A stretch of 64,000 nt of DNA from NCBI GenBank assembly GCA_017508485.1, contig JAFVYV010000017.1, forward strand, positions 1 through 64,000, written 5' to 3'. Both the position numbers and the translations under genes were made by a program. Under the pieces are notes generated by a model, which saw nothing but the letters and a program-made list of their open reading frames with translations, was not told the origin of the DNA and searched no databases. Below, piece after piece: positions 1-13,456 of this stretch. The DNA is from Clostridia bacterium. GTDB lineage: Bacteria > Bacillota > Clostridia > Christensenellales > Borkfalkiaceae. Each line of letters begins with the position of its first letter. Within the stretch, counting starts at the first letter, position 1.

Positions 1-14
1 CCTTTATATACCAT

Positions 15-130
15 TGCGGTGACGATGGCGGTGAGGTCCCACCTGTTCCCATCTCGAACACAGAAGTTAAGCTCACTTGCGCCGACAATACTTTGCTGGT
101 GACGGCACGGGAAGATAGGTAGTTGCTGCA
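15..130 (+). rRNA. rrf: 5S ribosomal RNA
   Basis: The conserved 5S core is present: CCCATCTCGAACACAGAAG followed by TTAAGCTC, with a later GGGAAGATAGGTAG. The first nine bases (TGCGGTGAC) pair with the last nine (GTTGCTGCA), allowing wobbles, which closes helix I and sets the ends. A rho-independent terminator follows seven bases later. It is presumably the last gene of a 16S-23S-5S operon lying left of the window. Confidence 0.95.
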
Positions 131-136
131 TCCATT

Positions 137-170
137 AAAAAGAACTAATCAAACGATTAGTTCTTTTTTT
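137..170 (+). terminator. rRNA operon terminator
   Basis: AGAACTAATC and GATTAGTTCT pair around the loop AAAC, followed by a run of T. It ends the rRNA transcript. Confidence 0.9.
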
Positions 171-172
171 AT

Positions 173-213
173 GTTAAATTCGCAAATTTTAACAGCAACT
201 ACCATCTTCCCTA
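173..213. repeat. 5S-proximal repeat, copy 1
   Basis: About 40 bases beginning TTAAATTCGCAA and ending CAACTACCATCTTCCCTA recur at 3330-3370 in the same orientation. The end of the repeat is also the reverse complement of the 5S 3' arm (GGGAAGATaGGTAGTTGCTG) apart from one missing base. The function is unknown. The rest of 214-414 has a small CATCG/CGATG hairpin near 321-334 and no gene that I can support. Confidence 0.6.
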
Positions 214-414
214 CGGGAAAGAGCCACAGTTTAAAAGCGAAAATAATTGCTTTTATACTGTGTAAGCCTAAAGCGACTATAATTAGAACTTACAAATTTA
301 AAAACGAAGTTGAATTATAACATCGTGAACGATGCATTATAGTTTGTTGCACTCACGTTATAAAACTTTGTAATTGCTACGTAATTAAATGGTTTTTATT
401 AAAATTAATTAAAA

Positions 415-450
415 TTTAACAAAACTTGTCATTTGTTTAACAAATGTTGG
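415..450 (+). promoter_or_regulatory. tandem TTTAACAAA operator-like pair
   Basis: TTTAACAAAACTTGTC starts at 415 and TTTAACAAATGTTGG at 436. They are 21 bp apart, on the same face of the helix, and 18 bp upstream of the -35 box for the phosphoesterase gene. The same paired motif precedes the SGNH hydrolase gene at 43893. Confidence 0.5.
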
Positions 451-467
451 TTTTTTTTAAAAATATA

Positions 468-496
468 TTGAAAAGGTTGAGTGCTTATGTTACAAT
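468..496 (+). promoter_or_regulatory. promoter of phosphoesterase gene
   Basis: TTGAAA (468-473) and TACAAT (491-496) with a 17-bp spacer, about 75 bp before the start codon. Confidence 0.6.
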
Positions 497-573
497 AAAA
501 CATATATTTTTTTAAAGGTTTAGTTAAGAACTTTTAAAATTTATTAGGAAGAAGTTTATAAAAGGAGATAGAT

Positions 574-2586
574 ATGAGAAAGTTATTAAGCATAATTTTG
601 GTACTAATGATGATGGGCTCAATGTTAGGTTTGTTTGCTTGTAAACCAACACCACCAGATCCAGGTCCAGACACGTCAACGGTATTTGATGAAAACAATA
701 TAGTCTTCTCATTTGCTTCGCTTTCAGATGTACACTTTACTTCAGTAGGAGATTACAAGTATAATAGAGAAAAGAACGACAAGGCATATAATTATTTATT
801 AGCAGAAGCTGCTAAATTAGATGCTGACGGCCTTGATGCAATCGGTGTTGCAGGGGATATAACAAATACGGGTACAAGTGGTCAAGTTGGTTATTTAAAA
901 GAAGCATTACAAAAGTTAGAATCTACTTCAGTAGGTAAAAACTATTTTATGACTACGGGTAACCATGACGTTTGGTATCCAGAAAGTTATTATAGAGCAG
1001 ATAGTGAAGCAACGCTTGAAAACTTATATAAGAATTTAGGTGATGAATATTTCCCAGACGTTGAAAAGGATTTAACACGTGGTGGATACCGTCATATAGT
1101 GCTTGACGGCGTACATATGATATTTATGGAACCAACTGATTACGGTTATGGTCCTGACGGTAGTAATACTAAAAACCCAATTTTCTGTCCATTTAAACAA
1201 GGAGCAATAGACTGGTTAGATGAAACGTTAGAAGAAATAACTACTGAAAATCCTAATGATTTTGTATTTATTTATACTCACCCAATGATGTATGATACCG
1301 TTTACGGCAGTCAACCTGAAAACTATGAAAACGAAGTAGAAACTTCAAGATGGACTACGAAATCTTTAGCACCAGTTTTAGAAAAGTATCCACAAGCAGT
1401 AAGTTTTAGTGGACACTCACACTTCCCAATAAACGATGACCGTTCAGTATGGCAAGGTGATTATACTGCATTTGGTTGTGGCTCAGTAGTAAGTGTAGGT
1501 ACTGAATATGGTGCTATTAAGCCTTATAATTACACACCGGAAGCTTCTTCTGGTTGGCTTATTCAATTAGACGGCAATGGAAATATGAGAGCAACTCGTT
1601 TAAATTTTGCAAAAGAAGAACATTACGGTGCTCCTATTGAAATTTCACATCCAACGGCTGACAAATCACATTTAGAAAAATATAATTTTGAAAATAGAAA
1701 AGAAGAAAATAAAGCGCCAACGCTTTTAGGAGAACTTAGCGTTCAACGTTCTGAAGATAGTTTAACGAGTGCAAAACTTACTATTCCAGCAGGTGTTGAC
1801 GATAGTTTCGTTCATCATTATTTAGTAAAAGTAGAAGACGCTTTAACGGGTGCGTTAATTAGTGAAAACAAGTACGTAACTGACTATTCAGTTCACTCTA
1901 ATCCTACAGAAACTATGACCACTCCTTATGAGTGTTATATTACGGTAAATGCTGAAGAATGTAAAGTTACGACATATGCAGTAGACTGTTGGGGAGTAAA
2001 GAGTGGTGCGTTGACAACTACTATAGAAGAATCAAACGCAACTATTTTACCTGCAACAACTGATTTTAGCGCACTTAACGCAGGGGATAAAATTGGTTAT
2101 GGTGAAGCTAACGGCTTAAGCGTAAAAGGTCCTGGCATACAATATCAAGGTGGCGTAACGCTAGTATCTACTTATGGTACTGAAAGTAGTTGTGATGCAG
2201 AAATAAAACAAGATGCAAACGGAGATAAATATGCAGCGTTTAGAGTAGCAAAAGAATCAAAAACTCGTGCATTAAAATTCCGTGTAGCTGAAAGTATTGC
2301 AACTGGTGAAAGAATTAAAATTACGTTAGTATTTAGATTAACTGAAAACTTTGAACTTCAAAGTGGTCAAACAAAGTCAATTTTCTTAAGATTACAAACT
2401 CAAGGTGGTGCAAACAACAACGTATATAGTGCAATAAATAATTTAACACCAGACGCTAACGGTTGGATGACTTATGAATTTGAAATGACAACTACGGCTG
2501 ATACAACTGCATTCTTATTCTATACTTATGCAGCACAAGGTCACGGCTTTGACGTAAAATCATTTACAGTTCAAAAAGCAAATTAA
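574..2586 (+). CDS. secreted metallophosphoesterase lipoprotein
   Basis: A 670-residue calcineurin-like phosphoesterase exported as a lipoprotein. Residues 1-23 are a lipoprotein signal with lipobox LFAC (lipidated Cys23), followed by a Pro/Asp-rich linker. The metal-binding motifs appear in order: SDVHF near residue 51, GDIT near 93, GNHDVW near 129, YTHPM near 234 and GHSHF near 280. The C-terminal 140 residues form a separate module (NGWMTYE...FDVKSFTV) resembling modules in the three secreted proteins at 33577, 36544 and 44006. The substrate is unknown; a cell-surface nucleotide or phosphate ester is plausible. The start is set by AAAGGAGA eight bases upstream. Confidence 0.85.
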   Translation: MRKLLSIILVLMMMGSMLGLFACKPTPPDPGPDTSTVFDENNIVFSFASLSDVHFTSVGDYKYNREKNDKAYNYLLAEAAKLDADGLDAIGVAGDITNTGTSGQVGYLKEALQKLESTSVGKNYFMTTGNHDVWYPESYYRADSEATLENLYKNLGDEYFPDVEKDLTRGGYRHIVLDGVHMIFMEPTDYGYGPDGSNTKNPIFCPFKQGAIDWLDETLEEITTENPNDFVFIYTHPMMYDTVYGSQPENYENEVETSRWTTKSLAPVLEKYPQAVSFSGHSHFPINDDRSVWQGDYTAFGCGSVVSVGTEYGAIKPYNYTPEASSGWLIQLDGNGNMRATRLNFAKEEHYGAPIEISHPTADKSHLEKYNFENRKEENKAPTLLGELSVQRSEDSLTSAKLTIPAGVDDSFVHHYLVKVEDALTGALISENKYVTDYSVHSNPTETMTTPYECYITVNAEECKVTTYAVDCWGVKSGALTTTIEESNATILPATTDFSALNAGDKIGYGEANGLSVKGPGIQYQGGVTLVSTYGTESSCDAEIKQDANGDKYAAFRVAKESKTRALKFRVAESIATGERIKITLVFRLTENFELQSGQTKSIFLRLQTQGGANNNVYSAINNLTPDANGWMTYEFEMTTTADTTAFLFYTYAAQGHGFDVKSFTVQKAN

Positions 2587-2599
2587 CAAGTATAAAAAA

Positions 2600-2632
2600 G
2601 AAAAAAGGCATTTTATTAAATGCCTTTTTTTA
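2600..2632. terminator. bidirectional terminator
   Basis: GGCATTT and AAATGCC form a stem with A-rich sequence to the left and a T run to the right. It separates the converging phosphoesterase and XRE genes. Confidence 0.8.
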
Positions 2633-2833
2633 ATATTTTTTTCTATCAAATAGTTCATCAAGGGTTACGTCGTAAAAGTCGGCTATTTTAATTAGTGTTT
2701 CGTAATCAGGGTTAACTTTTCCGTTTTCATATCTTGTGTAATTTACCCTTGAAATACCAAGTTTAATAGCAAGGTCGGTTTGAGTTAAATTATAAGAAAG
2801 CCTAAGTTCTTTTAATTTTTTACCTAAATCCAT
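2630..2833 (-). CDS. XRE-family transcriptional regulator
   Basis: A 67-residue single-domain Cro/CI-type helix-turn-helix protein. The recognition region reads TQTDLAIKLGISRVNYTRYE, followed by the usual LIKIADFYDVTLDELF end of small XRE proteins. I start at MDLGKKLKEL (ATG at 2833) because AAGGAAA lies upstream of it; an upstream in-frame ATG lacks such a site. It is divergent from the membrane protein at 2947 and the shared spacer has repeated TGTAC boxes, so it probably represses that gene and itself. Comparable two-gene units encode phage-type or stress-type regulators; the signal is unknown. Confidence 0.85.
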   Translation of the reverse strand: MDLGKKLKELRLSYNLTQTDLAIKLGISRVNYTRYENGKVNPDYETLIKIADFYDVTLDELFDRKKY

Positions 2834-2874
2834 TGTTAATAATTTTCCTTTTTCAAAATTTACTTTTTTATTTA

Positions 2875-2936
2875 TTGACATTGTACACAATATGTACTAT
2901 AATATGTAAAAATGTACAAAATATGTACAACGCAAA
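2875..2936 (+). promoter_or_regulatory. promoter with TGTAC operator repeats
   Basis: A consensus promoter, TTGACA (2875-2880) and TATAAT (2898-2903) with a 17-bp spacer, reads toward 2947. TGTAC occurs four times in 2882-2930, inside the spacer and downstream of the -10 box, with one ATGTAA variant between. This arrangement fits binding of the divergent XRE repressor. Confidence 0.7.
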
Positions 2937-2946
2937 GGAGAAAATT

Positions 2947-3333
2947 ATGAAAAAAAGAGTTTATTATACAAAAGAAGAAAGTGAAAAATATGTAACAAGG
3001 TTTTTTGAAGGAAAAAAACTTCCTGACGGAATTTTTCTAGAGGGAAATGCAAAAGATGATATGAGGGCTTATTATTTTGTAGAAGAAGAAACTATAACCT
3101 ATGAAAAGAAAGAAGAAAGTGGGGTGAAAGTTGTACAATATCTACCAAATGATACGGGAAACAATCAAGCAAAAATGGATGAAATGTTAGAAACCGTTAA
3201 ATCAATAAAAACACATACTGGTTTTTTCTTTGTGCTTGGAGTAATTGGACTTGTTATATCATTGCTTGGTGGTTTAATGGTACTTGTAGCTGGTGGTTCT
3301 TGTATATCTGCTTGTAGTTCTTTTTTTAGTTAA
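2947..3333 (+). CDS. small membrane protein of unknown function
   Basis: A 128-residue protein I do not recognise. The first 90 residues are charged and soluble, then residues about 97-122 form a hydrophobic glycine-rich membrane segment (FFFVLGVIGLVISLLGGLMV), ending in a Cys/Ser-rich tail. The start at 2947 has AAAGGAG seven bases upstream; a longer reading from 2833 would run through the operator and has no site. It lies behind the XRE-controlled promoter, so it is probably the regulated partner of that gene. Confidence 0.65.
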   Translation: MKKRVYYTKEESEKYVTRFFEGKKLPDGIFLEGNAKDDMRAYYFVEEETITYEKKEESGVKVVQYLPNDTGNNQAKMDEMLETVKSIKTHTGFFFVLGVIGLVISLLGGLMVLVAGGSCISACSSFFS

Positions 3334-3370
3334 ATTCGCAAGTATTTAACATCAACTACCATCTTCCCTA
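3330..3370. repeat. 5S-proximal repeat, copy 2
   Basis: Direct imperfect copy of 173-213 (TTAAATTCGCAA ... CAACTACCATCTTCCCTA). It starts at the stop codon of the preceding gene. Confidence 0.6.
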
Positions 3371-3389
3371 TAAATAATTTTTTATTATA

Positions 3390-3418
3390 TTGAAAATAAA
3401 TAGTATATTTGTTATAAT
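3390..3418 (+). promoter_or_regulatory. promoter of zinc-ribbon nuclease gene
   Basis: TTGAAA (3390-3395) and TATAAT (3413-3418), spacer 17 bp, 31 bp before the TTG start. Confidence 0.65.
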
Positions 3419-3448
3419 AAAATAAAAAAGTTGCAATAAGAGGTTTTT

Positions 3449-5353
3449 TTGAAGAAAGTATATATTGTTGAACATAAAGAAATGTATGATTCATGGAACT
3501 GGGAAAAAAACAACGAATTAGGTTTTTATCCAGAAAAGATTACTATTGGGAGTGAAAAAAAAGTTTGGTGGAAATGTCCAGTATGTGGGCATGAATGGAT
3601 TACTGAACCATATCATAGGAAGGCTGGACGAAGTTGTCCTATGTGTGCAAAAGAGAAACGCCTCGAAAATTTTCAAAAGACAATTTTAAATAAAAGGGGT
3701 TCTTTGTTACAAGACAATCCAGATTTGTGTATAGAATGGGATTACGAGAAAAACATTGGTATATACCCAAGTGAAATTTCCCCAAGGGCTCCACAAATTG
3801 TTTGGTGGAAATGTTCAAAATGTGGACATGAGTGGAAAGCGAGTATATCTAATAGGAATTCTAAAAATTTTCCTACTGGTTGTCCGAGCTGTTCATTAGT
3901 TTATCAATCATCTATTCCTGAAAAAATAGTTTTATATTATGTTAGAAAAATCTTTTGCGATTCTCTTGAAAATCAAAAGCTTGGTGAAGATAATAATTTT
4001 GAACTAGATATTTATATTCCGTCTTTACAATTAGGGGTAGAATATGACGGGTCTTTATGGCACAAAGATATTGCAAGAGATTTGAATAAAGAGAAACTTT
4101 GTCAAGAAAAAGGGATACATTTAATCAGATTAAGAGAAAAAGGGTGTGAAAATATAGATAGTAAGGCTAAAATAATTAACATCCCTAAAATAAGAACGAA
4201 CTATAAACAATTGTATGAACCGTTGGTCGAACTGTTTGAGTACATTAAGCAAAAATTTGGATTAAATTTTAGAATAGTTATTGATATAGAAAAAGATATA
4301 TATGATGTTTATAAAAATATAAACTTTAACAAAGTAGAGAATTCTATTATAAATGCAGAGTTTTTTTCAGAGTGGGACTTTGAGAAAAACACAATTTTAC
4401 CAGAAAATGTTTCAATACATTCAAACAAGGTTTTTTGGTGGAAATGTAAGCATGGGCATGAGTGGAAGTCCTCAGTAAATAATAGGGCAAATGGAAACAA
4501 ATGTCCAGTTTGTTCTAATAAAAAAATCCTTAAAGGCTATAACGATTTAGCAACAACTCATCCAGAATTTTTAAAGGAATGGAATTATGAAAAGAATAAG
4601 GATATTCAACCCGACGCCATTTTTGCTGGGGCTAATAAAAAAGTCTGGTGGAAATGTGAAAAAGGACATGAATGGCAAGCATCTCCAAATACTAGGATTG
4701 GACAAAAAACAAGCTGCCCTATTTGTTCTAACCATAGAGTGCTCAAGGGATATAATGATTTAGCAACAACTCATCCTAAACTTTTAAAAGAATGGAACTA
4801 TGACAAAAACAAGGCTGTTCAACCTGACGCTCTTGTTGCAGGGTCAAATAAAAAAGTTTGGTGGATATGTAGAAAATGTGGGTATGAATGGCAAGCCCCA
4901 CCAACTGCAAGGGTTTATGCGAAAAGGGGTTGTAAAAAATGTGCGCACAGAAAAATTGGACTTATTAACGCGAAGCCTATTGCTGGTAAAAGTTTTGCGG
5001 ATTTATATCCTGAACTTTTAGTTTTATGGGACTATGAAAAAAACAAAATATCGCCATATGAAATAGCTCCATCATCAAATAAAAAAGTTTGGTGGATATG
5101 CGAAAACGGACATAGTTATCAAAGAAAAGTTATTGACCAAAAGAAACGACAAACTTGTCCGATTTGCAAGCCAAGAATGAAAAAGATAGCTTGCGTGGAA
5201 ACGGGAATTGTTTATGATAGTTTGGTAAGTGCGGCTAAGGCGTTTGGATATAAAAAATCTAACAATATATGGGCTGCTTGTAATGATAATAAAAAAACCT
5301 TTTGTGGCTATCATTGGCAATATGTGGAAGATGAAGAAGGAGCAAAGGTATGA
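3449..5353 (+). CDS. zinc-ribbon repeat protein with Vsr-like nuclease domain
   Basis: A 634-residue protein of repeated domains. Six copies of a roughly 55-residue unit (W.YEKN ... P..I......KVWWKC..GHEW......R....CP.C) match the probable zinc-ribbon family PF14311. Two lie before and four after a PD-(D/E)XK/Vsr-like nuclease domain at about 154-235 (SIPEKIV, ELDIYIP, GVEYDGSLWH, HLIRLRE). In later copies the first zinc pair is eroded (CKHGH, CEKGH, CENGH). The last 50 residues (VETGIVYDSLVSAAKAFG) resemble a NUMOD1/IENR1 DNA-binding element of homing endonucleases. TTG start with AAGAGG six bases upstream. It overlaps mazG by four bases. It is probably a selfish or defence-type DNA endonuclease; the target is unknown. 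Confidence 0.75.
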   Translation: MKKVYIVEHKEMYDSWNWEKNNELGFYPEKITIGSEKKVWWKCPVCGHEWITEPYHRKAGRSCPMCAKEKRLENFQKTILNKRGSLLQDNPDLCIEWDYEKNIGIYPSEISPRAPQIVWWKCSKCGHEWKASISNRNSKNFPTGCPSCSLVYQSSIPEKIVLYYVRKIFCDSLENQKLGEDNNFELDIYIPSLQLGVEYDGSLWHKDIARDLNKEKLCQEKGIHLIRLREKGCENIDSKAKIINIPKIRTNYKQLYEPLVELFEYIKQKFGLNFRIVIDIEKDIYDVYKNINFNKVENSIINAEFFSEWDFEKNTILPENVSIHSNKVFWWKCKHGHEWKSSVNNRANGNKCPVCSNKKILKGYNDLATTHPEFLKEWNYEKNKDIQPDAIFAGANKKVWWKCEKGHEWQASPNTRIGQKTSCPICSNHRVLKGYNDLATTHPKLLKEWNYDKNKAVQPDALVAGSNKKVWWICRKCGYEWQAPPTARVYAKRGCKKCAHRKIGLINAKPIAGKSFADLYPELLVLWDYEKNKISPYEIAPSSNKKVWWICENGHSYQRKVIDQKKRQTCPICKPRMKKIACVETGIVYDSLVSAAKAFGYKKSNNIWAACNDNKKTFCGYHWQYVEDEEGAKV

Positions 5354-5769
5354 GAGAGATTAACGGTAAAGTTTATATTGAAAAGGATAAGCACGACTTA
5401 AAGGAACTTATAGAAATTGTTTCTATCCTTCGTTCAAAAGATGGTTGTGAGTGGGACAGGGCGCAAACTTTTGAAAGTATGAAGACCTGCTTAACAAACG
5501 AATCTAACGAAGTTTTAGATGCAATTGACAATAAAGATTACGAAAACTTAAAAGAAGAGTTAGGGGACGTGCTACTTCAAGTTATTATGAACGCAGAAAT
5601 TGCAAAAGAACAACAACTTTTTGATATAAACGACGTTGTGCAAGTTTTGTGTGAAAAGTTAATTCGCCGTCATCCACACGTTTTTGGTGATGAAAAAAGA
5701 CCAACTAACGACCAAGAAGCCCTTGCTCTTTGGAAAAAGGTAAAAGAAATTGAAAAAAAGTCTAAATAA
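5350..5769 (+). CDS. mazG: MazG-like nucleotide pyrophosphohydrolase
   Basis: A 139-residue single MazG domain. It shows the all-alpha NTP-PPase signature: LRSKDGCEWDRAQTFESMKTCLTNESNEV then LKEELGDVLLQVIMNAEIA, and HPHVFGD near the end. Metal-binding acidic residues are in the ESNE and EELGD parts. It hydrolyses nucleoside triphosphates to monophosphate and pyrophosphate, typically to clear aberrant nucleotides. One MazG domain is about half the E. coli length and is common in Bacillota. The ATGA overlap with the upstream nuclease gene indicates translational coupling, although mazG may also be the older chromosomal gene. Confidence 0.9.
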   Translation: MREINGKVYIEKDKHDLKELIEIVSILRSKDGCEWDRAQTFESMKTCLTNESNEVLDAIDNKDYENLKEELGDVLLQVIMNAEIAKEQQLFDINDVVQVLCEKLIRRHPHVFGDEKRPTNDQEALALWKKVKEIEKKSK

Positions 5770-5770
5770 A

Positions 5771-5800
5771 AGCACGGAAAAAACCGTGCTTTAACTTTTA
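5771..5800 (+). terminator. terminator after mazG
   Basis: AGCACGG and CCGTGCT around AAAAAA, then TTAACTTTT. Confidence 0.75.
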
Positions 5801-5817
5801 TTAAAAGGTTTATTTAG

Positions 5818-5846
5818 TTGAAATAGATTTTATATTGTGTTAAAAT
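5818..5846 (+). promoter_or_regulatory. promoter of fumC-malic enzyme operon
   Basis: TTGAAA (5818-5823) and TAAAAT (5841-5846), spacer 17 bp. Confidence 0.65.
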
Positions 5847-5877
5847 AATAAAAAAGTTATAAACAAAGGGAAAAATT

Positions 5878-7251
5878 ATGGAATATCGCATTATGCACGA
5901 CTCTATGGGAGAAGTAAAAGTGCCAAAAGACAATTATTGGGGAGCGCAAACGCAAAGAAGTTTAGAAAATTTTGCAATAGGCACGGAAACTATGCCTGAA
6001 AGTTTAATTTACGCGCTTTCAGTAATTAAACTTGCGTCAGCAAGGGTAAACAATAAACTAAAAAATGATAAAATGACTGATGAAAAGTTAAGGACCATTG
6101 AAACGGTTATTATAGGCGATATTTTAAATGGCGAACTACTTTACACGGAATTTCCTTTATCGGTATGGCAAACGGGTAGTGGTACGCAAACTAATATGAA
6201 CGTTAACGAAGTTATTGCAAACCGTGCTAACGAACTATTAAAAAAAGAACTACTTCACCCTAACGACGATATAAATATGTCGCAAAGTTCTAACGACGTT
6301 TTCCCTTCAGCAATGCATATTTCAGCAGTTTTAGAACTTGCCGACCTTATAACTGAACTAAAAGTGTTGATAACTGCTTTTAAGAAGTTAGAAAGTCAAA
6401 ACAAAAAAGTTGTAAAAAGTGGTAGAACGCACCTTCAAGATGCAACGCCTATTAGTTTTGCGCAAGAAATTAGTGGTTGGAGAAGTTCGCTTGAAAAAGA
6501 TTTAGAACTTATTTTAGAAGCAAGAAAGCACCTACTTTCTTTAGCGATAGGTGGCACGGCAGTTGGTACTGGCTTAAACGCACCTAAAGGTTTTGACCTA
6601 GCCGTTTGCGAAGAACTTTACGCAATAACCGGTTATAAATTTAAACCTGCAAAAAACAAGTTCCACGCACTAACTTCTAAAGATGAAATGGTTTATGCGC
6701 ACGGTGCGTTAAAGGCTTTAGCCGTTGATTTAATGAAAATTGCTAACGATATAAGATGGCTAAGTAGTGGTCCAAGATGTGGCTTAGGGGAAATTTCTAT
6801 ACCAGAAAACGAACCTGGTTCTTCAATAATGCCAGGCAAGGTTAACCCTACTCAATGTGAAGCAATTTCTATGATAGCCGTACAAGTTTTAGGTAACGAC
6901 GCTACCATTGGATTTAGTGCATCACAAGGGAACTTTGAACTTAACGTGTTTATGCCTGTTATAATTTACAACTTCGTTCAGTCTGCAATTTTACTTAGCG
7001 ACGGTATGTATTCTTTTACGGAAAATTGCGTAAAAGGTATAAAAGCAAACAAAAAAAAGATGAAGGAAAACTTGACTAACTCACTTATGTTAGTAACGGC
7101 GCTTTCACCTTATATCGGGTATGAAAAGTGTGCAAAAATTGCTAAACTTGCTCACCAAAAAAACCTTTCTTTAAAGGAAGCAACCCTGTCGCTTGGCTAT
7201 TTAACGGAAGAAGAATTTGATAAATACTTTCATCCTGAGGAGATGATTTAA
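5878..7251 (+). CDS. fumC: class II fumarate hydratase
   Basis: A 457-residue soluble homotetrameric enzyme that interconverts fumarate and malate without an iron-sulphur cluster. Family marks are WQTGSGTQTNMNVNEV, NDVFPSAMH, GRTHLQDATPI and the signature GSSIMPGKVNPTQ. Length matches the family (about 460). It is followed two bases later by malic enzyme, so the pair converts fumarate through malate to pyruvate and NADH. Aspartase is the closest alternative, but WQTGSGTQTN and the absence of aspartase-specific features favour fumarase. Confidence 0.95.
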   Translation: MEYRIMHDSMGEVKVPKDNYWGAQTQRSLENFAIGTETMPESLIYALSVIKLASARVNNKLKNDKMTDEKLRTIETVIIGDILNGELLYTEFPLSVWQTGSGTQTNMNVNEVIANRANELLKKELLHPNDDINMSQSSNDVFPSAMHISAVLELADLITELKVLITAFKKLESQNKKVVKSGRTHLQDATPISFAQEISGWRSSLEKDLELILEARKHLLSLAIGGTAVGTGLNAPKGFDLAVCEELYAITGYKFKPAKNKFHALTSKDEMVYAHGALKALAVDLMKIANDIRWLSSGPRCGLGEISIPENEPGSSIMPGKVNPTQCEAISMIAVQVLGNDATIGFSASQGNFELNVFMPVIIYNFVQSAILLSDGMYSFTENCVKGIKANKKKMKENLTNSLMLVTALSPYIGYEKCAKIAKLAHQKNLSLKEATLSLGYLTEEEFDKYFHPEEMI

Positions 7252-7253
7252 TA

Positions 7254-8426
7254 ATGAACGTAAAGGAAGAATCACTAAAAAAGCATTTTGAGTGGAAGGG
7301 CAAAATTGAAGTTGTTTCAAGGGCAAAAATAAATTCAAAAGAAGACCTTTCTTTAGCATATACTCCAGGGGTTGCAGAGCCTTGCCTTGTTATAAATAAA
7401 GATGAAAGCAAGTCTTTTGAATTAACAAGAAGGGCAAACCTTGTTGCCGTTATAACCGACGGTACTGCCGTTTTAGGGCTTGGCGATATAGGTCCACTTG
7501 CAGGTATGCCCGTTATGGAAGGCAAGTGTGCGTTGTTTAAGGAATTTGCCGACGTTGATGCCTTTCCTATTTGCGTAAAGTCAAAAGACGTTGATGAAAT
7601 TGTTAGAACAATTGAACTTATTTCCGGCTCTTTTGGTGGAATAAATTTAGAAGATATTTCTGCGCCACGCTGTTTTGAAATAGAAAAAAGGTTAAAAGAA
7701 GTTTTAGACATACCAGTTTTCCACGACGACCAACACGGCACGGCGATAGTGGTGGCGGCTGCCTTAATTAACGCGTTAAAGGTGGTTAAAAAGAATATTG
7801 ATTTAGTTAAAGTTGTAATAAACGGTGCAGGGTCTGCAGGTATTGCAATTTGTAAACACCTACTTAATATCGGTGTTAAAAATATCGTAATGGTTGATAA
7901 GTTTGGCGTTATTTGTGAAAAGGACGAAAGTTTAAGTAATTCGCATAAAGAAATTGCAAAACTTACTAATAAAGAACTGCTAACTGGTAGTTTAGCAGAT
8001 GCACTAAAAGGTGCCGACGTGTTTATAGGTGTTAGCGCACCTAATATCGTGACCGAAGATATGGTTAGGTCAATGAATAGCGATGCTATCGTTTTCCCTA
8101 TGGCTAACCCTACGCCTGAAATTATGCCTGACTTAGCACTAAAGGCAGGGGCAAGAGTTGTTGGTACGGGTAGGTCAGACTTTCCTAACCAAATAAACAA
8201 CGTTTTAGCCTTTCCTGGTATTTTTAGGGGTGCGCTTGACTCAAGGGCGACCACCATTAACGAAGAAATGAAGGTTGCTTGTTCTTTTGCACTTGCTAAC
8301 TTAATTGATGAAAAAGATTTAAGAGAAGATAATATAATTCCAAACGCACTTGATAAAAGGGTGGCGGTAGAAGTTGCTAAAGCGGTAACCACCGCCGCTA
8401 AAAAAACGGGTGTAAATAGAATATAA
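7254..8426 (+). CDS. NAD-dependent malic enzyme
   Basis: A 390-residue short-form malic enzyme (oxaloacetate-decarboxylating), making pyruvate, CO2 and reduced cofactor from malate. It has LAYTPGVAEPC near residue 35, TDGTAVLGLGDIGP, the metal and substrate region ISAPRCFEIE, HDDQHGTAIV, the nucleotide-binding INGAGSAGIAI and a late GRSDFPNQINNVLAFPGIF. Length matches the bacterial short form. It is coupled to fumC with the ribosome binding site inside the fumC end. An acidic DK rather than an NADP-type basic residue after the Rossmann turn suggests NAD use, but this is inference. Confidence 0.92.
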   Translation: MNVKEESLKKHFEWKGKIEVVSRAKINSKEDLSLAYTPGVAEPCLVINKDESKSFELTRRANLVAVITDGTAVLGLGDIGPLAGMPVMEGKCALFKEFADVDAFPICVKSKDVDEIVRTIELISGSFGGINLEDISAPRCFEIEKRLKEVLDIPVFHDDQHGTAIVVAAALINALKVVKKNIDLVKVVINGAGSAGIAICKHLLNIGVKNIVMVDKFGVICEKDESLSNSHKEIAKLTNKELLTGSLADALKGADVFIGVSAPNIVTEDMVRSMNSDAIVFPMANPTPEIMPDLALKAGARVVGTGRSDFPNQINNVLAFPGIFRGALDSRATTINEEMKVACSFALANLIDEKDLREDNIIPNALDKRVAVEVAKAVTTAAKKTGVNRI

Positions 8427-8431
8427 AAAAT

Positions 8432-8468
8432 CAAAAACACTAATCTAAAAAGGTTGGTGTCTTTTGTT
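8432..8468 (+). terminator. terminator after malic enzyme
   Basis: CACTAATC and GGTTGGTG pair with wobbles around TAAAAA, followed by TCTTTTG. Confidence 0.5.
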
Positions 8469-8537
8469 AAAAAGGTGCATTTTTATTAAAAGGTAGGGGC
8501 TTTTGTTAAGAAAATCAAAAAAAATTAATTTTGGTTA

Positions 8538-8566
8538 TTGAAAAATAAAAAAGTGTAGTATATAAT
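8538..8566 (+). promoter_or_regulatory. rubrerythrin promoter
   Basis: TTGAAA (8538-8543) and TATAAT (8561-8566), spacer 17 bp, 34 bp before the start codon. Confidence 0.7.
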
Positions 8567-8599
8567 AGTGTTGTAAATTTTTTATTAAGGAGACAAATT

Positions 8600-9136
8600 A
8601 TGAACAAATATAGTGGAACTAAAACTGAAAAGAACTTAGAAGCCGCTTTTGCAGGGGAATCACAAGCAAGAAATAAATATACTTACTTTGCATCAGTTGC
8701 TAAAAAGGAAGGTTATGAACAAATTTCAGCATTATTCTTAAAAACTGCTGAAAACGAAAAGGAACACGCAAAACTTTGGCTAAAAGAATTACAAGGTATT
8801 GGCAATACTGCTGAAAATTTACTTCACGCAGCTGAAGGTGAAAATTACGAATGGACTGATATGTATGAAACTTTTGCTAAAGAAGCCGAAGAAGAAGGCT
8901 TTAAAGAATTAGCTGCTAAATTCCGTTTAGTTGCCGCTATTGAAAAGCACCACGAAGAAAGATACAGAGCACTTCTAAATAACGTAGAAACTGCTACTGT
9001 ATTTGAAAAGAGTGAAGTTAAGGTTTGGGAATGCAGAAACTGTGGACACATTATCGTTGGTAAAAAAGCACCTGACCTTTGCCCAACTTGTGCACACCCT
9101 AAAGCATATTTTGAAATTCATTTAGAAAATTATTAA
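8600..9136 (+). CDS. rbr: rubrerythrin
   Basis: A 178-residue peroxide-scavenging protein of anaerobes, with a four-helix di-iron domain and a C-terminal rubredoxin domain. Ligand motifs visible are ESQARNKY near residue 20, [10 protein letters not shown] near 52, EEGF and [11 protein letters not shown] near 113-123. Two CxxC rubredoxin pairs (CRNCG and CPTCAHP) bind the single iron. Its own strong promoter and AAGGAGA site indicate high expression. It is the last host gene before the integrated element. Confidence 0.95.
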
Positions 9137-9155
9137 AATTAAAAGTAAACCTAAA

Positions 9156-9182
9156 AACGCCTCTAAAAAGGGGCGTTTTTTT
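9156..9182 (+). terminator. rubrerythrin terminator
   Basis: AACGCC and GGGGCGTT around TCTAAAAA with a trailing T run. Confidence 0.85.
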
Positions 9183-9255
9183 ATGCAAAAATCTAACCCG
9201 TTAGTGGCTATCTTTTTTAAAGGCACAATATATGGAAAAACCTTTAAAAAACTTT

Positions 9256-9274
9256 ATAAAAAATGTAAAAAACC
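9256..9274. repeat. possible left attachment repeat
   Basis: ATAAAAAATGTAAAAAACC recurs in direct orientation at 22500-22519 with one extra A, flanking the whole element. It is AT-rich, so chance similarity is possible. Confidence 0.35.
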
Positions 9275-9315
9275 TGTAAATGTCAAGAGTAAATTACACA
9301 TTTAAATAAAAAATA

Positions 9316-10383
9316 TTAACAAATAGCTTGAAAATGAAAATTAAAAACGTTTTGAGGGGTATCATAACCTAAAATTCCACGTGGATAATTATTTAACCAC
9401 TCTTCAACTTCAGCAACGTCTTTAAGACTTACTGAAGTAAAATCAGTTCCTTTAGGGAACTTTCTACGAATTTCACGGTTCATACGTTCATTAGTTCCAC
9501 GTTCAGAAGAACAGTAAGGATGACAATAATAAATTGTCGTCCTTTTTTTATTACCATATCGAGAACGTTGCATAGAAAAATAATCAGAAAATTCAGCGCC
9601 GTTATCTACCGTTATAGACTTAAACAGTTTAGGAAAGATTTTTCCATAACGACGTTCCAAAGAATTAAGACACTTAACAACAGATAAAGACGTTTTATCT
9701 GGTATCTTAAAGATTATCTCACGTCTTGATAATCTTTCAGACAAACAAAGTAACGTTGCTTTCTTTTTTTGTGAACTTTCAATACAGTACATTTCCCAAT
9801 GGCCAAACTCTAAACGATTAGAAACTTCCACCGGTCTTTTATCAATACTAATACCACGCGGTAATTTTTTAATTACAAGTTTTTTATGAGTACGTTTTTC
9901 TTTATTAGCATAAGGAAGATGCTCCATAGACAAACGCAAGAAAACACCGTTTCTAATGTAGTTATATAAAGTCTGAACACAAATAGTTGTATTAAAAACC
10001 AAACCTTTCTTTTTAATTTCACCAAGAACTGCAAGTGGTGTTAAACCATCATCAACTATTCTTTTTTCAATATAATTAGCAAATTCAAAGTCTTTACCGA
10101 TTTTTAATTCAATACCGTGACCACGAACATTATTCTCATAAAGTTCTTGTCCTTTATTTGGACTATATGAAGTTATCCGTTTATATTTTTTGCCATACCA
10201 AAAATTATCACTAACTTTAGTATGCTCATACTCACCACGTTTAAGTTCATTATAAATTGTCTTAAACGAGCATCCAATTTCTTGAGCAATTCTTCTAGCT
10301 TTATATCCAACACGATATAAAGCTTCTATCTGAAGTCTATCGTTCCACGTTAAATGCTTAAAAGTCCTTTTTTTAGTTTCCAT
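9316..10383 (-). CDS. IS30-family transposase, probably catalytically inactive
   Basis: A 355-residue DDE transposase. The N-terminus has the IS30 helix-turn-helix (LQIEALYRVGYKARRIAQEI and FKTIYNELKRGEY). The core has GHWEMYCI near residue 195, ITVDNGAEF near 262, CHPYCSSERGTNERMN and the end EEWLNNYPRGILGYDTP. IS30 transposases normally read GHWE.D at the first site; here codon 199 (9787-9789, complement TAC) gives Tyr where Asp is expected, a one-base change from GAC. The second Asp and the Glu look intact. No matched inverted repeats hug this gene, so it may have served the larger element. Spiroplasma plectroviruses are known to carry IS30-type transposases. Confidence 0.85.
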   Translation of the reverse strand: METKKRTFKHLTWNDRLQIEALYRVGYKARRIAQEIGCSFKTIYNELKRGEYEHTKVSDNFWYGKKYKRITSYSPNKGQELYENNVRGHGIELKIGKDFEFANYIEKRIVDDGLTPLAVLGEIKKKGLVFNTTICVQTLYNYIRNGVFLRLSMEHLPYANKEKRTHKKLVIKKLPRGISIDKRPVEVSNRLEFGHWEMYCIESSQKKKATLLCLSERLSRREIIFKIPDKTSLSVVKCLNSLERRYGKIFPKLFKSITVDNGAEFSDYFSMQRSRYGNKKRTTIYYCHPYCSSERGTNERMNREIRRKFPKGTDFTSVSLKDVAEVEEWLNNYPRGILGYDTPQNVFNFHFQAIC

Positions 10384-10401
10384 TTTTTATACCCCTTGTG
10401 G

Positions 10402-10478
10402 TTTAATGTCCGAAAAGGGAAAGGATGAACGGCTATACCGCCTCGTTCTATCCTTTTCCTTTTTTCGGACATATTAAA
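10402..10478. promoter_or_regulatory. large imperfect hairpin, candidate phage intergenic signal
   Basis: ATGTCCGAAAA (10406-10416) pairs with TTTTCGGACAT (10462-10472), extended inward by GGAAAGGAT/ATCCTTTTCC and AACG/CGTT around a TATACC-centred loop. About 65 nt fold almost end to end. It lies upstream of the transposase. Filamentous phage genomes use such hairpins as packaging signal or complementary-strand origin; that role here is inference. Confidence 0.5.
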
Positions 10479-10524
10479 AACCAATTTAAAAATAAAAAAG
10501 AGCTGTAAACTCTTTTAACCCCTA

Positions 10525-10551
10525 CTTGACGAACTGCCTTTTATGTGCAGT
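10525..10551 (+). promoter_or_regulatory. left arm of inverted repeat flanking toxin gene
   Basis: CTTGACGAACTGCCTTTTAT and the following GTGCAG match, in inverted orientation, the antisense promoter at 10676-10705 (about 21 of 25 bases). In a toxin transcript starting upstream, the two arms could pair 5' to 3', as in other type I toxin messages. It could also be a degenerate sense promoter (TTGACG, poor -10). Confidence 0.45.
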
Positions 10552-10569
10552 TAAAAAAGAAAAAAAGGA

Positions 10570-10670
10570 GGTTGCGAACTATGTCGACATTTGAAACAAT
10601 ATACATAGTTTTAACAATAATTGAAATTGCAGTTTCAATTATTGCAATATTTCGCTAACCACCTTTTCAC
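10570..10670 (-). ncRNA. putative antitoxin antisense RNA
   Basis: The promoter is TTGACT (complement of 10699-10704) and TATACT (complement of 10676-10681) with a 17-bp spacer. Transcription would begin near 10670 and run leftward through the toxin gene and its ribosome binding site. The left end is not defined by a clear terminator, so 10570 is only a minimum guess. Confidence 0.5.
10581..10658 (+). CDS. small hydrophobic peptide, putative type I toxin
   Basis: A 25-residue peptide (MSTFETIYIVLTIIEIAVSI and then IAIFR) with a single membrane helix and a basic end. It has a very strong ribosome binding site (AAAGGAGG) at good spacing. It resembles short holin-like toxins of Bacillota type I toxin-antitoxin systems, which begin M.TFE. 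A near-consensus promoter on the opposite strand starts just beyond its stop codon and would make antisense RNA. An alternative is a phage tip protein of pVII/pIX size, but the antisense promoter favours a toxin. Its place in the element suggests a maintenance function. Confidence 0.6.
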   Translation: MSTFETIYIVLTIIEIAVSIIAIFR

Positions 10671-10753
10671 AAGGTAGTATAGCACATAAAGAGAAGTTAG
10701 TCAAGCCGTTGATTTTATCAATACCACTATTATAAAAAGCCACCCCTAACCAT

Positions 10754-10864
10754 AGGTATATACGTTGCGTATGTTTTTTCCCTTATCGTAGCCCGGTCCA
10801 AAAAGTTGAGAAAGGACTTTTTAGGACCTTATCGTTATTCCAAAAACATACTTACGTATATACG
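10754..10864. promoter_or_regulatory. nested hairpin region
   Basis: Outer arms GTATATACGT..GTATGTTTTT (from 10756) and AAAAACATAC..ACGTATATAC (to 10863) pair over 20 bp with a small internal mismatch. An inner stem pairs GGTCC-AAAAAGT (10795 on) with ACTTTTT-AGGACC. CCTTATCG is repeated directly in both internal loops (near 10781 and 10827). No gene is present. Candidate replication or packaging element. Confidence 0.45.
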
Positions 10865-10901
10865 TACGTATAAGTTTTAAAAAACTAACTTTAAAGAGAT
10901 A

Positions 10902-10930
10902 TTGACAAAACGTATAAAAAATGATACACT
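10902..10930 (+). promoter_or_regulatory. promoter of zinc-finger nuclease gene
   Basis: TTGACA (10902-10907) and TACACT (10925-10930), spacer 17 bp. The predicted start near 10937 coincides with the left arm of the 86-nt leader hairpin. Confidence 0.65.
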
Positions 10931-10935
10931 CTTTA

Positions 10936-11086
10936 TGTTCACGCAACTAAATAAATTTTCATATGTGTAATATCAAAAACGATATTTCTCTATTTTTACA
11001 TATGAAGATTTTGCGTGAACAACAAAATTAAACTTAAAAGAGAAATATTTAGTTTTATGCGTTCTCTTTTAGAGGACGCATTTTTT
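10936..11086 (+). promoter_or_regulatory. structured leader with attenuator
   Basis: The leader opens with a long hairpin: TGTTCACGCAA (10936-10946) pairs with TTGCGTGAACA (11011-11021), and inner TTCATATG/CATATGAA and ATATC/GATAT stems continue it. Then TGCGTTCTC and GAGGACGCA with a T run (11057-11086) make a terminator. TTAAAAGAGAA (11034-11044) can instead pair with TTCTCTTTTAG (11062-11072), breaking the terminator. This is a classic two-state attenuator layout; the ligand or factor is unknown. Confidence 0.55.
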
Positions 11087-11106
11087 ATTTCAAAGGGGTA
11101 ATTATT

Positions 11107-11793
11107 ATGGGAAAATGTCAAGTATGTGGAAAACCAACCAAATTAAACTTTCCTTTATGTAAGGAACATTATGAATTAAAAGAACAAGGAAAAATAGTTC
11201 AATGCGCCGACTGTGGTAAATGGAACGAAAAAGACGTTGTTTGTGATTGTAAAAAAGTAAAAGAAGAAAGTAAGCCCGAAAACGAACTTACTTGTATTAT
11301 TTGTGGCAAACCATCTAACGGACAACATTTTTGTTTTGATTGTTGGAAACAATTTAACAACAAAGTAGTATACATACAAGTAAAAAAATGTAAAGAGTTT
11401 ACAAAACTAGATGCAGAATATGAAAGTGAATTAACTTGTGATGATGGACATTTAGTAAAAAGTCCTTATGAAAAAATTATTGATAACTGGTTATATTCTG
11501 AAGGAATAAAACACGCATACGAAAAGAAAATAGACGTGGATGAAACACACGAACTGACTCCAGACTTTTTTATTCCAGAATATAATGGAATAAAAAATAT
11601 TTATGTCGAATTTTGGGGTTATGGAGAAGACAATATTAAATATCAAAGAATTAAAGAATACAAATTAAAAATTTATCCTGAATTAGTAAAAAGAGAAAAC
11701 ATCGCAGTTGTTTATCTTAACAAAAAAGAAGTTGATACCGACAAGTATAAGACAAAAATAAAATATGCTAAACAAGGGGATATAAAACAATAA
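11107..11793 (+). CDS. zinc-finger protein with PD-(D/E)XK nuclease-like domain
   Basis: A 228-residue protein. Residues 1-95 have several small zinc-finger motifs (CQVCGKP, CADCGKW, CDC, CIICGKP, CFDCW). Residues about 115-210 look like a PD-(D/E)XK fold: SPYEKIIDNWLYSEGI (helix with Glu), LTPDFFIPEY (the PD) and YVEFWGYGED (the E strand, with no obvious Lys), then the helix and VVYLN strand usual in this fold. It faces away from the phage operon and has its own promoter and attenuated leader. Cargo, defence or genome-processing nuclease are all possible. SD is AAAGGGG. Confidence 0.6.
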   Translation: MGKCQVCGKPTKLNFPLCKEHYELKEQGKIVQCADCGKWNEKDVVCDCKKVKEESKPENELTCIICGKPSNGQHFCFDCWKQFNNKVVYIQVKKCKEFTKLDAEYESELTCDDGHLVKSPYEKIIDNWLYSEGIKHAYEKKIDVDETHELTPDFFIPEYNGIKNIYVEFWGYGEDNIKYQRIKEYKLKIYPELVKRENIAVVYLNKKEVDTDKYKTKIKYAKQGDIKQ

Positions 11794-11820
11794 AAAAAAG
11801 AGCCATCTGGCTCTTTTTTA
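11792..11820. terminator. bidirectional terminator
   Basis: AGAGCC and GGCTCT around ATCT, with A run left and T run right, between converging genes. Confidence 0.85.
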
Positions 11821-12174
11821 TTACATACGTTTATTACATTTTACAATTTTAAAATCATAATATGAATGGTCTTGAGAATTAAACATATTTAAAGTACCAG
11901 CTTTTGCTTTTCGCAATACAGATTCTTTTTGATATTTCTCTCTTTTTATAGCTTTATTTAAGGCTGTTTGAGCAGATTTTTTTGTTTTATGATAAGAAGA
12001 ATAGATTTCAACATCTTTCATACGATGTTCAACCCTATTATCATTATTCATATAAACAGAATCTACAGATACTTTATACTTCATCAAAGGATGTTCTTTA
12101 TTATATTGATGTTTTCTACCAATTACATATGCTCGTTTTTCTGCAGATGTTTTAAATAAATTAAATTTTGCCAA
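11821..12174 (-). CDS. hypothetical basic protein of the element
   Basis: A 117-residue, strongly basic protein with no membrane segment and no motif I recognise. It is rich in Lys and Tyr, with KTKKSAQTALNKAIKREKYQKE in the middle likely helical. The start is TTG at 12174 with AAAGGA upstream; the next ATG would remove 32 residues. It is the last gene of the leftward phage operon. A DNA-binding or packaging role would fit its charge, but that is a guess. Confidence 0.5.
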   Translation of the reverse strand: MAKFNLFKTSAEKRAYVIGRKHQYNKEHPLMKYKVSVDSVYMNNDNRVEHRMKDVEIYSSYHKTKKSAQTALNKAIKREKYQKESVLRKAKAGTLNMFNSQDHSYYDFKIVKCNKRM

Positions 12175-12610: not shown

Positions 12611-12676
12611 AACGAAAGTAAATATTATTTCTTTTTCCCACAAGGTATATTGTTACTTGTGGGAATTCTTTTTATT
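12611..12676 (+). ncRNA. candidate small RNA 1 of the element
   Basis: About 65 nt lie between the promoter at 12576 and an intrinsic terminator (CCCACAAG 12637-12644, CTTGTGGG 12656-12663, then AATTCTTTTTATT). No reading frame of note. It is antisense to the 3' end of the gene at 12653-13030, whose stop codon sits in the terminator loop. Confidence 0.5.
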
Positions 12677-13030
12677 ATAATCTCTTTTTGCAAAAGATTT
12701 AAGAAAAGCAGACTGCTTTTTAGGTAAATGATTTTTACCAAATGGAAATACGTGTTTCTTATCTTTCACGTCAATCTTATCACCATTAATATTTTTAGAG
12801 TAATAGTAATTTTGTACACCAGTAGGAACGTCAAATTCCTTAAACTTAGTTACGGCTATATTTCCTTTAGACACTTGTCTAAAACGCTTATCATCTTTTA
12901 CGTATAAATGAGTAGTAGCAATTGCTTTATACTCTTTATTTGTTCTATCATAATATACTGCATACGTATGAATGCCTTCAGGCTCTTTACTATTAAACAA
13001 ATATTTATTTTTTATTTTATAAAGTTTCAT
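12653..13030 (-). CDS. hypothetical protein, paralogue of the 13589-14053 product
   Basis: A 125-residue basic protein with no membrane segment. Its middle (HTYAVYYDRTN, then ATTHLYV, PTGVQNYYYSKNINGDKIDVKD) matches the protein at 13589-14053 (HTYIVYYDNNN, ETTHYV, PTTVNRSYYTKDIDGKSFNLKD), so the two are paralogues. ATG 13030 is chosen because GATAAGGAG precedes it; the same GATAAGGAGTAAATTTATG junction precedes the paralogue. I do not recognise the family. Its last codons overlap the small RNA 1 terminator. Confidence 0.55.
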   Translation of the reverse strand: MKLYKIKNKYLFNSKEPEGIHTYAVYYDRTNKEYKAIATTHLYVKDDKRFRQVSKGNIAVTKFKEFDVPTGVQNYYYSKNINGDKIDVKDKKHVFPFGKNHLPKKQSAFLKSFAKRDYNKKNSHK

Positions 13031-13034
13031 AAAT

Positions 13035-13406
13035 TTACTCCTTATCAAAATTAACGTTAAAATCGTTAACTGCAATATCTTTAACAATTTGCAGTACGTC
13101 TTTTTTTGTAAAACTGTCATCATCCTTATCATAGGCAAAATAACTTTCAAGTTTAAATATAAAATCTTTGATTATTTCTTTATTTTTACAAGATATTTCA
13201 TACATTTCGTCATTTAAATTTATTAAGTAGTTTCTTGTTGTTTCAATAATATTAGCACAGTCAAGATAATGTTTTTTTATAATTTTTAGAAGATTTTCTT
13301 TTTCTAAATTATTTAAATTCTCTAATATATGGCTTGATACATATCTTAGTGTGCTTTCTTTTTTTTGACTTTCTAATAATATTTTTTCAAATACTTTTTT
13401 TTCCAT
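13035..13406 (-). CDS. hypothetical helical protein of the element
   Basis: A 123-residue, acidic-to-neutral protein predicted mostly helical from its Leu/Ile/Glu/Lys pattern (for example NLEKENLLKIIKKHYLDCANII). No motif recognised. AAAGGAGAAAAACT precedes the ATG. It ends in DKE-stop with the ribosome binding site of the next gene inside the stop region, so the two are translationally coupled. Confidence 0.5.
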   Translation of the reverse strand: MEKKVFEKILLESQKKESTLRYVSSHILENLNNLEKENLLKIIKKHYLDCANIIETTRNYLINLNDEMYEISCKNKEIIKDFIFKLESYFAYDKDDDSFTKKDVLQIVKDIAVNDFNVNFDKE

Positions 13407-13456
13407 AGTTTTTCTCCTTTTTTATAATAGTTTTTTAATATTTTTTTCTAAAATAG

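Follow-up and report, generated by a model that had tools for sequence, protein, structure and literature searches.

Most of what is known about free-standing homing genes comes from phages. Those designated seg and mob in T4 are intergenic, and some of them have displaced the promoter of the next gene; the endonuclease is said to be retained more readily when promoters of essential genes are embedded in its gene, and SegB is located between tRNA genes (PMC2988022). In the group II introns of phages, homing genes have been described in which CapR/DUF4379-like units are combined with an EDxHD/Vsr-like nuclease, the name EDxHD for this class of nuclease being taken from published papers. As far as that description extends, each of these genes encodes a C-terminal nuclease together with three to five units, and lies inside an intron (PMC12350094). 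Thousands of matches to DUF4379-like/EDxHD-type domains were reported in 2025 within the same account, and since it joins DUF4379-like units with EDxHD/Vsr-like nucleases, the kind of gene described below is, to that extent, already known (PMC12350094).

Domain layout of the nuclease

The gene under study is located in the window, the whole stretch of 64,000 nt from a Clostridia bacterium that was analysed. By ORF reading it is an uninterrupted frame of 634 codons starting at TTG, and it is preceded at a distance of 5 nt by an AAGAGG ribosome site (3438-3443). A promoter match lies further upstream and, as a single match, constitutes weak evidence, given that the scan found 18 sites compared to the 14.4 expected. 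The features of the gene are listed here, with the borders of the DUF4379 units set by eye on the Pfam stretches.

3390-3418, + strand: promoter match TTGAAA-17-TATAAT of the nuclease gene (promoter scan)
3449-5353, + strand: DUF4379-array EDxHD/Vsr-type nuclease gene, 634 aa, TTG start
3473-3658, + strand: DUF4379 unit 1, WWKCPVCGHEW...CPMC
3716-3898, + strand: DUF4379 unit 2, WWKCSKCGHEW...CPSC
3911-4156, + strand: EDxHD/Vsr-type nuclease domain with E185, D187, E198, D200, H205, D211 and K214 (alignment and fold)
4343-4531, + strand: DUF4379 unit 3, C-x3-H form
4553-4738, + strand: DUF4379 unit 4, C-x3-H form
4766-4951, + strand: DUF4379 unit 5, extra Cys, GY replacing GH
4991-5170, + strand: DUF4379 unit 6, C-x3-H form
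5174-5326, + strand: NUMOD1-like C-terminal element (phrog_4538 and a sub-cut-off NUMOD1 match)

Six stretches of PF14311 (DUF4379) were recognized by Pfam in the 634-aa protein (E 4.3e-103; 337.9 bits against a cut-off of 24.5), two on the N-terminal and four on the C-terminal side of the nuclease domain, which bears out a preliminary description of six PF14311-like units around a nuclease. The same description held that the later units had lost part of the first zinc pair, and in this it was mistaken. The WWxC motif is present in 318 of the 365 units of the nuclease-bearing relatives, and among these 318 the C-x3-H form accounts for 246 and an extra Cys for 67 (57 without and 10 with a His at the scored place). 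A loss of zinc ligands in units 3, 4 and 6 was consequently rejected, the C-x3-H form being the commonest; judged from these alignments, C-x3-H...CxxC is the usual predicted zinc pattern of the family, and units 1, 2 and 5, with an additional Cys, have its rarer form.

The nuclease domain occupies residues about 155-236, between units 2 and 3. No Pfam family matches it in the window protein; with ten relatives, several match MTES_1575 below its cut-off, one matches Vsr weakly, and DUF559 is matched weakly, rising above its cut-off in one (L071). The PHROGs family phrog_3339, annotated as 'homing endonuclease', covers the domain, and the best solved chain for the nuclease profile is 3r3p ('Mobile intron protein', E 4e-4), identified in the fold comparison as the catalytic domain of I-Bth0305I. 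Of the residues in the list (window numbering), D187, E198, H205 and K214 are invariant in 52 aligned rows, comprising the window protein and 51 relatives, and E185, D200 and D211 are kept in at least 90% of them; their residue-by-residue assignment to the putative catalytic positions of the EDxHD class is that of the present analysis. A structure model of residues 90-365, encompassing units 2 and 3 and the nuclease (mean pLDDT 90), was aligned by VIA-align in a second look with I-Bth0305I (3r3p; Z 9.8, 93 residues, rmsd 2.5) and Vsr (1cw0; Z 8.8 over 102 residues). Profile, fold and conserved residues thus agree in placing the window protein among the EDxHD/Vsr-type nucleases, and the preliminary call of a PD-(D/E)XK/Vsr-like domain was sound. 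The modelled fold does not by itself single out homing enzymes, as other rows of PD-(D/E)XK type tie: a Neisseria endonuclease-like protein (3hrl), the CRISPR ancillary nuclease Can2 (8bao) and Bax1, as well as mitoribosomal proteins, fall within 1 Z of I-Bth0305I and Vsr, and because the first three score so closely, structure alone is insufficient for assignment to the homing class. The top rows of Foldseek, in contrast to this second look, were kinetoplastid mitoribosomal proteins. Given that the model matches two of these (7pua Fd and 6yxx E2), the fold of the nuclease region may bind RNA too.

The C-terminal end was earlier termed NUMOD1-like. The resemblance stands, phrog_4538 matching residues 576-626; membership of the Pfam family does not, NUMOD1 scoring E 0.14 with the whole protein and E 0.013 with the tail alone, where its 16.2 bits fall under the curated cut-off of 22.8. 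Similar tails occur in four relatives (L078, L089, L101 and L121).

The putative insertion and the mazG leader

Comparison with the sister species G001, the single congener compared, delimited a block in the window that comprises the nuclease gene and two further ORFs.

2636-5348, no strand: block of 2,713 bp, absent from G001, which has 56 bp instead (blastn and junction letters)
2630-2890, - strand: XRE-type HTH regulator (PF01381, E 1.7e-18); a start at 2833 would give 67 aa
2882-2928, no strand: a pair of near-identical 16-nt boxes, TGTACA(C/A)AATATGTAC, located where the HTH and membrane-protein genes diverge (repeat search)
2947-3333, + strand: small ORF, probable membrane protein, 128 aa from ATG, no Pfam family above cut-off
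5337-5342, + strand: AAGGAG ribosome site for mazG, inside nuclease codons; G001 has AAGAGGT in the spacer
5350-5769, + strand: mazG, single-domain, 139 aa (PF03819, E 4.5e-28), 97% identical in G001

Positions 208-2635 and 5349-5786 of the window align by blastn with one contig of G001 at 98 and 95%, respectively, and are separated there by 56 bp; that both flanks align and adjoin in G001 argues against a chimeric contig. No nuclease match was found anywhere in the G001 genome. The block replaces 56 bp of spacer, and the spacer letters of the two genomes are unrelated; this is neither a clean insertion nor a textbook homing product. No direct repeats were seen by eye at the junctions, and with a GC content of 31.5% against 33.7% for the window, the block is not marked by composition. 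Rfam listed no intron family in positions 1-12000 of the window (E up to 1), and the insert is intergenic, not inside a gene. The stop codon of the XRE regulator falls in the old flank, outside the block, and the small membrane ORF has one weak match outside its own genome, in 1 of 60 relatives. The boxes are likely operators, to judge by their placement, and a TTGACA-17-TATAAT promoter match was found at 2875-2903; with the boxes between them, the divergent regulator and membrane ORF (2630-3333) look like an autoregulated pair of their own within the block.

In G001, a phosphoesterase gene precedes mazG, with 106 bp between its stop and the mazG ATG; in this interval come, in order, a terminator, a promoter (TTGCCA-17-TATAAT) and a ribosome site (AAGAGGT), the last two read by eye. 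In the window this leader is displaced: the right edge of the block sits on the mazG ATG, leaving mazG without a spacer of its own, and the promoter and ribosome site of the G001 type are absent. The stop codon of the nuclease gene and the start of mazG share ATGA (5350-5353), a 4-nt overlap that the preliminary description had recorded correctly, and no terminator-like site was found on the + strand between 3449 and 5350. Judged from this arrangement, mazG would depend on the transcript of the nuclease gene, if it is dependent at all. The earlier proposal, by which the nuclease gene had adopted mazG expression, is not supported, because the ribosome site of mazG lies within the nuclease gene and the mazG promoter seen in G001 is absent; dependence, if any, would run in the opposite direction. 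The suggestion of a selfish insertion fares better in that a homing-type mobile insertion still fits, with the amendment that what was inserted exceeds the gene, extending over 2636-5348 and three ORFs.

A conserved nuclease upstream of mazG, which would speak against insertion, was looked for at 29 mazG loci (G001 and 28 relatives; about 1.5 kb on each side), and neither a nuclease nor a zinc-unit match was present at any of them, in keeping with the expectation that relatives have mazG without this neighbour. In the four other genomes with a match whose mazG was also located (G002, G003, G008 and G072), the two are on separate contigs. Since mazG of the other genomes lies in frames of 285 to 610 codons, as opposed to 140-144 in the window genus, they provide no usable outgroup at this locus. 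A second variable spot adjoins mazG: G001 has a 683-aa gene (L061, 7556-9607) between mazG and the fumarase gene that was not seen there in the window.

A DUF4379 gene likewise replaces a leader in a phage, flush on the next start codon. Matches to the protein occur in 125 of 50,697 phage records, and one DUF4379 protein, ORF50 of Sporosarcina phage Lietuvens (QIG62564.1; 348 aa), has two Pfam unit stretches and a weak DUF2726 nuclease-like match at its C-terminus. Its gene begins 14 bp downstream of the helicase gene and shares four bases, AAATGACG, with the start of the primase gene. In Bacillus phages phi18-2 and KLEB27-1, whose helicase DNA is related to that of Lietuvens (63 and 67%), the gap between helicase and primase is 110 and 122 bp, respectively, with no such gene annotated. 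Such overlaps are not a general rule, as a start within the stop codon, with an ORF of at least 90 codons, was found at 4 of 89 loci; two of these four are nuclease-bearing, and doubtful.

Elsewhere in the window, a minus-strand block at 12653-21700 encodes a replication protein with Rep_OBD and helicase domains (20041-21153) and large proteins without a Pfam match (14058-16268 and 16356-18266); it is probably an integrated rolling-circle phage or plasmid. A transposase with HTH_38 and a weak rve integrase core, which we take to be IS30-like, is encoded at 9316-10383. The product of 11107-11793 matches a double zinc ribbon weakly and has, by eye, a nuclease-like DFFIPEY stretch.

Relatives at tRNA and tmRNA 3' ends

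The 3' ends of tRNA genes are usually credited to integrases as insertion sites, and no report of a tRNA-end habit of nucleases such as these was found in the literature searched for tRNA-end islets. A match was present in 15 of 101 genomes, that of the window included. The first set of loci was composed of 58 from GTDB contigs, nine from viral contigs and 16 stretches from relatives (L062-L077); after removal of redundant loci (L088, L107, L108, L118, L122, L126, L130, L133, L138 and L143) and of those without two units or a nuclease (L073, L074, L076 and L077), 69 were left. Fifty-five of these carry the nuclease, and on either side of it the array has anything from none to seven units. At 18 of the 69 loci, the end of a tRNA or tmRNA gene of the same strand lies no more than 700 bp upstream; the full 700-bp flank on both sides is available for 58 of the 69, and all 18 are nuclease-bearing (18/55 with the nuclease vs 0/14 without). 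Within that distance a tRNA on the other strand was seen upstream at one locus (L099, which also has a facing one), and none of the 69 has a tRNA or tmRNA within 700 bp downstream; L067 has a facing one at 882 bp. Rfam, applied to 16 of these loci and G001, added a tmRNA at L080.

For an independent test, 396 genomes sampled evenly across the order were searched with the nuclease profile. Matches, many of them weak, were obtained in 65; the set taken from them comprised the 20 places with E 2e-15 or lower that were new, the first set already containing four others of this strength. A tRNA or tmRNA 3' end faces the nuclease within 1 kb at 12 of the 20, compared to 0.78 tRNAs expected (Poisson 3e-12), an expectation derived from far flanks that hold only four tRNAs, and at none of the 20 does a tRNA face away within this distance. 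For loci with DUF4379 arrays of three or more units, the count is 11/17; non-DUF4379 arrays stand at L212, L213 and L210, L212 and L213 having one unit by our own profile and none by Pfam. Control loci facing a tRNA end within 1 kb numbered 0/28 for mazG and 1/9 for HTH genes, and for the defence genes DpnII and Abi_2, of which 20 of 36 and 15 of 16 matches were fetched, 0/20 and 0/15. Within 4 kb a tRNA end is faced by the nuclease at 13/20 loci (two of the 20 also having a tRNA that faces away), by DpnII at 6/20 and by Abi_2 at 2/15. The excess of the nuclease over DpnII is modest at this islet scale, and the DpnII and Abi_2 counts imply that tRNA-end sites serve defence genes too.

Inheritance of the target together with the protein was not supported, tRNA identity changing 25 times on a quick tree in which 34 rows carried labels and 19 of the 32 inner branches are open (L112 and L127 left out); L085/L123 and L080/L103 are pairs of close proteins whose tRNA sites differ. 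The nearest row to the window protein is L211 (42%), located at tRNA-Pro; the window copy itself is not at a tRNA, none having been found in the 64 kb.

Direct repeats of the tRNA end on the far side of the gene were clear of shuffles at five loci in the first set (L068, L079, L086, L098 and L127), out of 24, and at two in the second, out of 12: L204, with 15 nt, and L210, with 36 nt that include 3 mismatches. At L218 the repeat is marginal (13 nt vs 12 in shuffles) and the tRNA tail is repeated at both ends; further marginal repeats (L082, L091, L110, L209 and L211) were left uncounted. Beside the nuclease, the L098 and L218 islets have no ORF of 90 aa or more that does not overlap it. Other islets add one gene, the product being of 221, 227, 243, 265 or 1,005 aa or a DUF4062 ATPase, which adjoins a truncated nuclease. 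No recombinase domain was found in six islet accessory proteins, ORFs of 60 aa and more being covered; near other relatives, serine recombinases occur at 396 bp (L112) and 527 bp (L066).

At L210 (6830-9460, in G352), the nuclease core is fused to ten HA (PF03457) repeats, with no DUF4379 units. This gene faces the tRNA-Trp end at 304 bp, in a 3.9-kb islet, and the kind of array thus seems exchangeable on the same nuclease core. The empty site is seen in G449 and G453, where the CCA of tRNA-Trp is directly followed by ATAAAAAGCGGAT, which stands after the islet in L210. Other genus-mates have different tails (L252 and L254) or a contig that ends 180 bp behind the tRNA (G451), and a search of 12 genus-mates gave no DNA match to the interior of the nuclease gene of L210. 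A clean empty site for L218 was not obtained, the region being rearranged in its genus-mates. At the same tRNA-Ser, G030 has the nuclease and G014 a DpnII-type system between 98-bp repeats; the latter islet (L167, 2290-7380) consists of DpnII-type restriction-modification (R-M) genes, a further methyltransferase and an OLD-like ATPase, with no recombinase among four proteins scanned.

Palindromic tails, about 120 to 180 bp long, were observed behind tRNA genes at L218 (6850-7000), L255, L246, L245 and L068 (5086-5642). In L218, L255 and L246 each tail includes the tRNA 3' end and the reverse complement of that end, with a hairpin and T run in the middle, and the tails are repeated in tandem, L246 having about six. 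They could be attachment or cassette sites; no recombinase for them was identified. Clustering of 651 neighbour proteins gave HTH proteins at 11 loci, serine recombinase/ParB-like proteins at 7, response regulators at 4, SmpB at 3, and others. A recurrent partner gene was rejected, the clusters being generic with the exception of one three-locus family, related proteins of 237-282 aa near the nuclease with no Pfam match (L062, 434-1147; L105, 1481-2293; L206, 5289-6137); by eye, those of L062 and L206 have a nuclease-core-like G(E/Q)CDA...DFK motif.

Origin of the window gene and comparison with known systems

The window gene is, with moderate probability, a free-standing homing-type endonuclease of the EDxHD/Vsr class that arrived between the phosphoesterase gene and mazG. 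By homology, the treble-clef units on both sides and the NUMOD1-like tail would hold the nuclease on a long DNA target; as in its family, the enzyme would cut alleles without the insert, and recombinational repair would copy the insert in. The nuclease presumably came together with, or next to, the XRE regulator and small membrane ORF. Presence and absence of the block are observed, and the patchy distribution suggests gain. As expected of an intergenic insertion, G001 lacks the insert and has contiguous flanks, minus 56 bp of differing spacer. If mazG, as the arrangement suggests, is transcribed along with the nuclease gene, losing the element would silence mazG, so that retention would be favoured, as argued for T4 seg/mob in the passages concerned with them (PMC2988022).

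The homing reading is tempered by the presence of two other ORFs in the block and by the tRNA-end islets of the relatives, which, with DpnII-type systems in the same position, suit a cargo gene equally. Such cargo could be an anti-phage or anti-plasmid nuclease, the array recognizing foreign DNA and the EDxHD domain cutting it, which we consider unlikely. It would account for the sharing of tRNA-end sites with DpnII-type systems (tRNA-Ser of G014 vs G030; 6/20 within 4 kb), the DUF4062 ATPase in one islet, Can2 among the fold matches, and a weak match of the window protein to PDC-S69 (E 0.0029), the one PADLOC model that it matched. Among 89 immediate neighbours, single proteins match PADLOC REase_I, AbiJ, AbiEi, RTasHel (DRT), GajB and PDC candidates, these being among 25 of 162 families listed, of which the GajB and RTasHel models may catch ordinary helicases. 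Set against this, homing nucleases are represented both by the top solved chain of the profile search and by a matching phage family, phages themselves carry matches, the L098 and L218 islets are devoid of a partner gene of 90 aa or more, and no window neighbour has a defence-type Pfam name. The absence of such partners bears equally on the idea that a recombinase encoded elsewhere moves islets into tRNA ends, the window copy being a chance-carried relic with no role in mobility, for these two islets are essentially the nuclease gene. Conservation of the catalytic residues, the location of the window copy away from any tRNA, and the retention of both nuclease core and tRNA-end site at L210 despite a different array make this improbable. 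It draws on the tandem tRNA-tail palindromes of genus-mates without the nuclease, the R-M islet at the same tRNA-Ser site, also without it, the seven-locus cluster of ParB-like and serine-recombinase proteins, whose L112 member lies 396 bp away from the nuclease gene, and the tRNA target that does not follow protein descent.

That the block was ancestral in the genus, and that G001 deleted it and regained a spacer promoter, is very unlikely. A single congener was available for comparison and the spacer letters of the two genomes are unrelated, as such a loss would allow; against it, promoter and ribosome site are both complete in G001 and lacking at this place in the window, 86 of 101 genomes have no match, and none of the 29 mazG loci has the nuclease or zinc units of the block.

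At the tRNA-end islets, the nuclease may ride or drive. A bolder proposal is that EDxHD nucleases with exchangeable arrays, of DUF4379 units or in one case of HA repeats, would define mobile islets at tRNA and tmRNA 3' ends that require no integrase of their own. The array would read the DNA around the cut, shuffling or exchange of arrays would retarget the enzyme to new tRNA genes, cutting of an emptied end would keep islet and cargo in place, and the window copy would be an escape to the leader of a protein gene. We regard this as speculative and rather doubtful. The relatives form a chromosomal branch in which a modular treble-clef array surrounds a nuclease, often at tRNA 3' ends, and if the array sets the target, they would provide a natural collection of re-targetable nucleases that could be decoded from their known host sites. 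The copy in the window shows a route to becoming hard to lose, in that it carries the ribosome site of the downstream gene.

Compared with the systems described, the window protein shares with I-Bth0305I (3r3p) a Vsr-like fold, the E/D...E..D..H...D pattern and extra DNA-binding modules; unlike that EDxHD enzyme, it has no intron found with it and its nuclease is central among six DUF4379 units. ORF50 of Lietuvens is similar in its DUF4379 units, nuclease-like match, ATGA overlap and the existence of related phages without the gene, and dissimilar in its length of 348 aa, C-terminal nuclease-like part and location in a phage replication module. T4 seg/mob genes, in the portion of the source that treats them, differ from the window gene in having GIY-YIG or HNH catalytic domains and in residing in a phage rather than a host chromosome (PMC2988022). 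The intron homing genes, as far as their published description covers them, share units of about 60 aa of the DUF4379-like type and an EDxHD/Vsr-like nuclease with the window gene, which departs from them in its units on both sides of the nuclease, its free-standing state, its place in a bacterial chromosome and its NUMOD1-like tail (PMC12350094).
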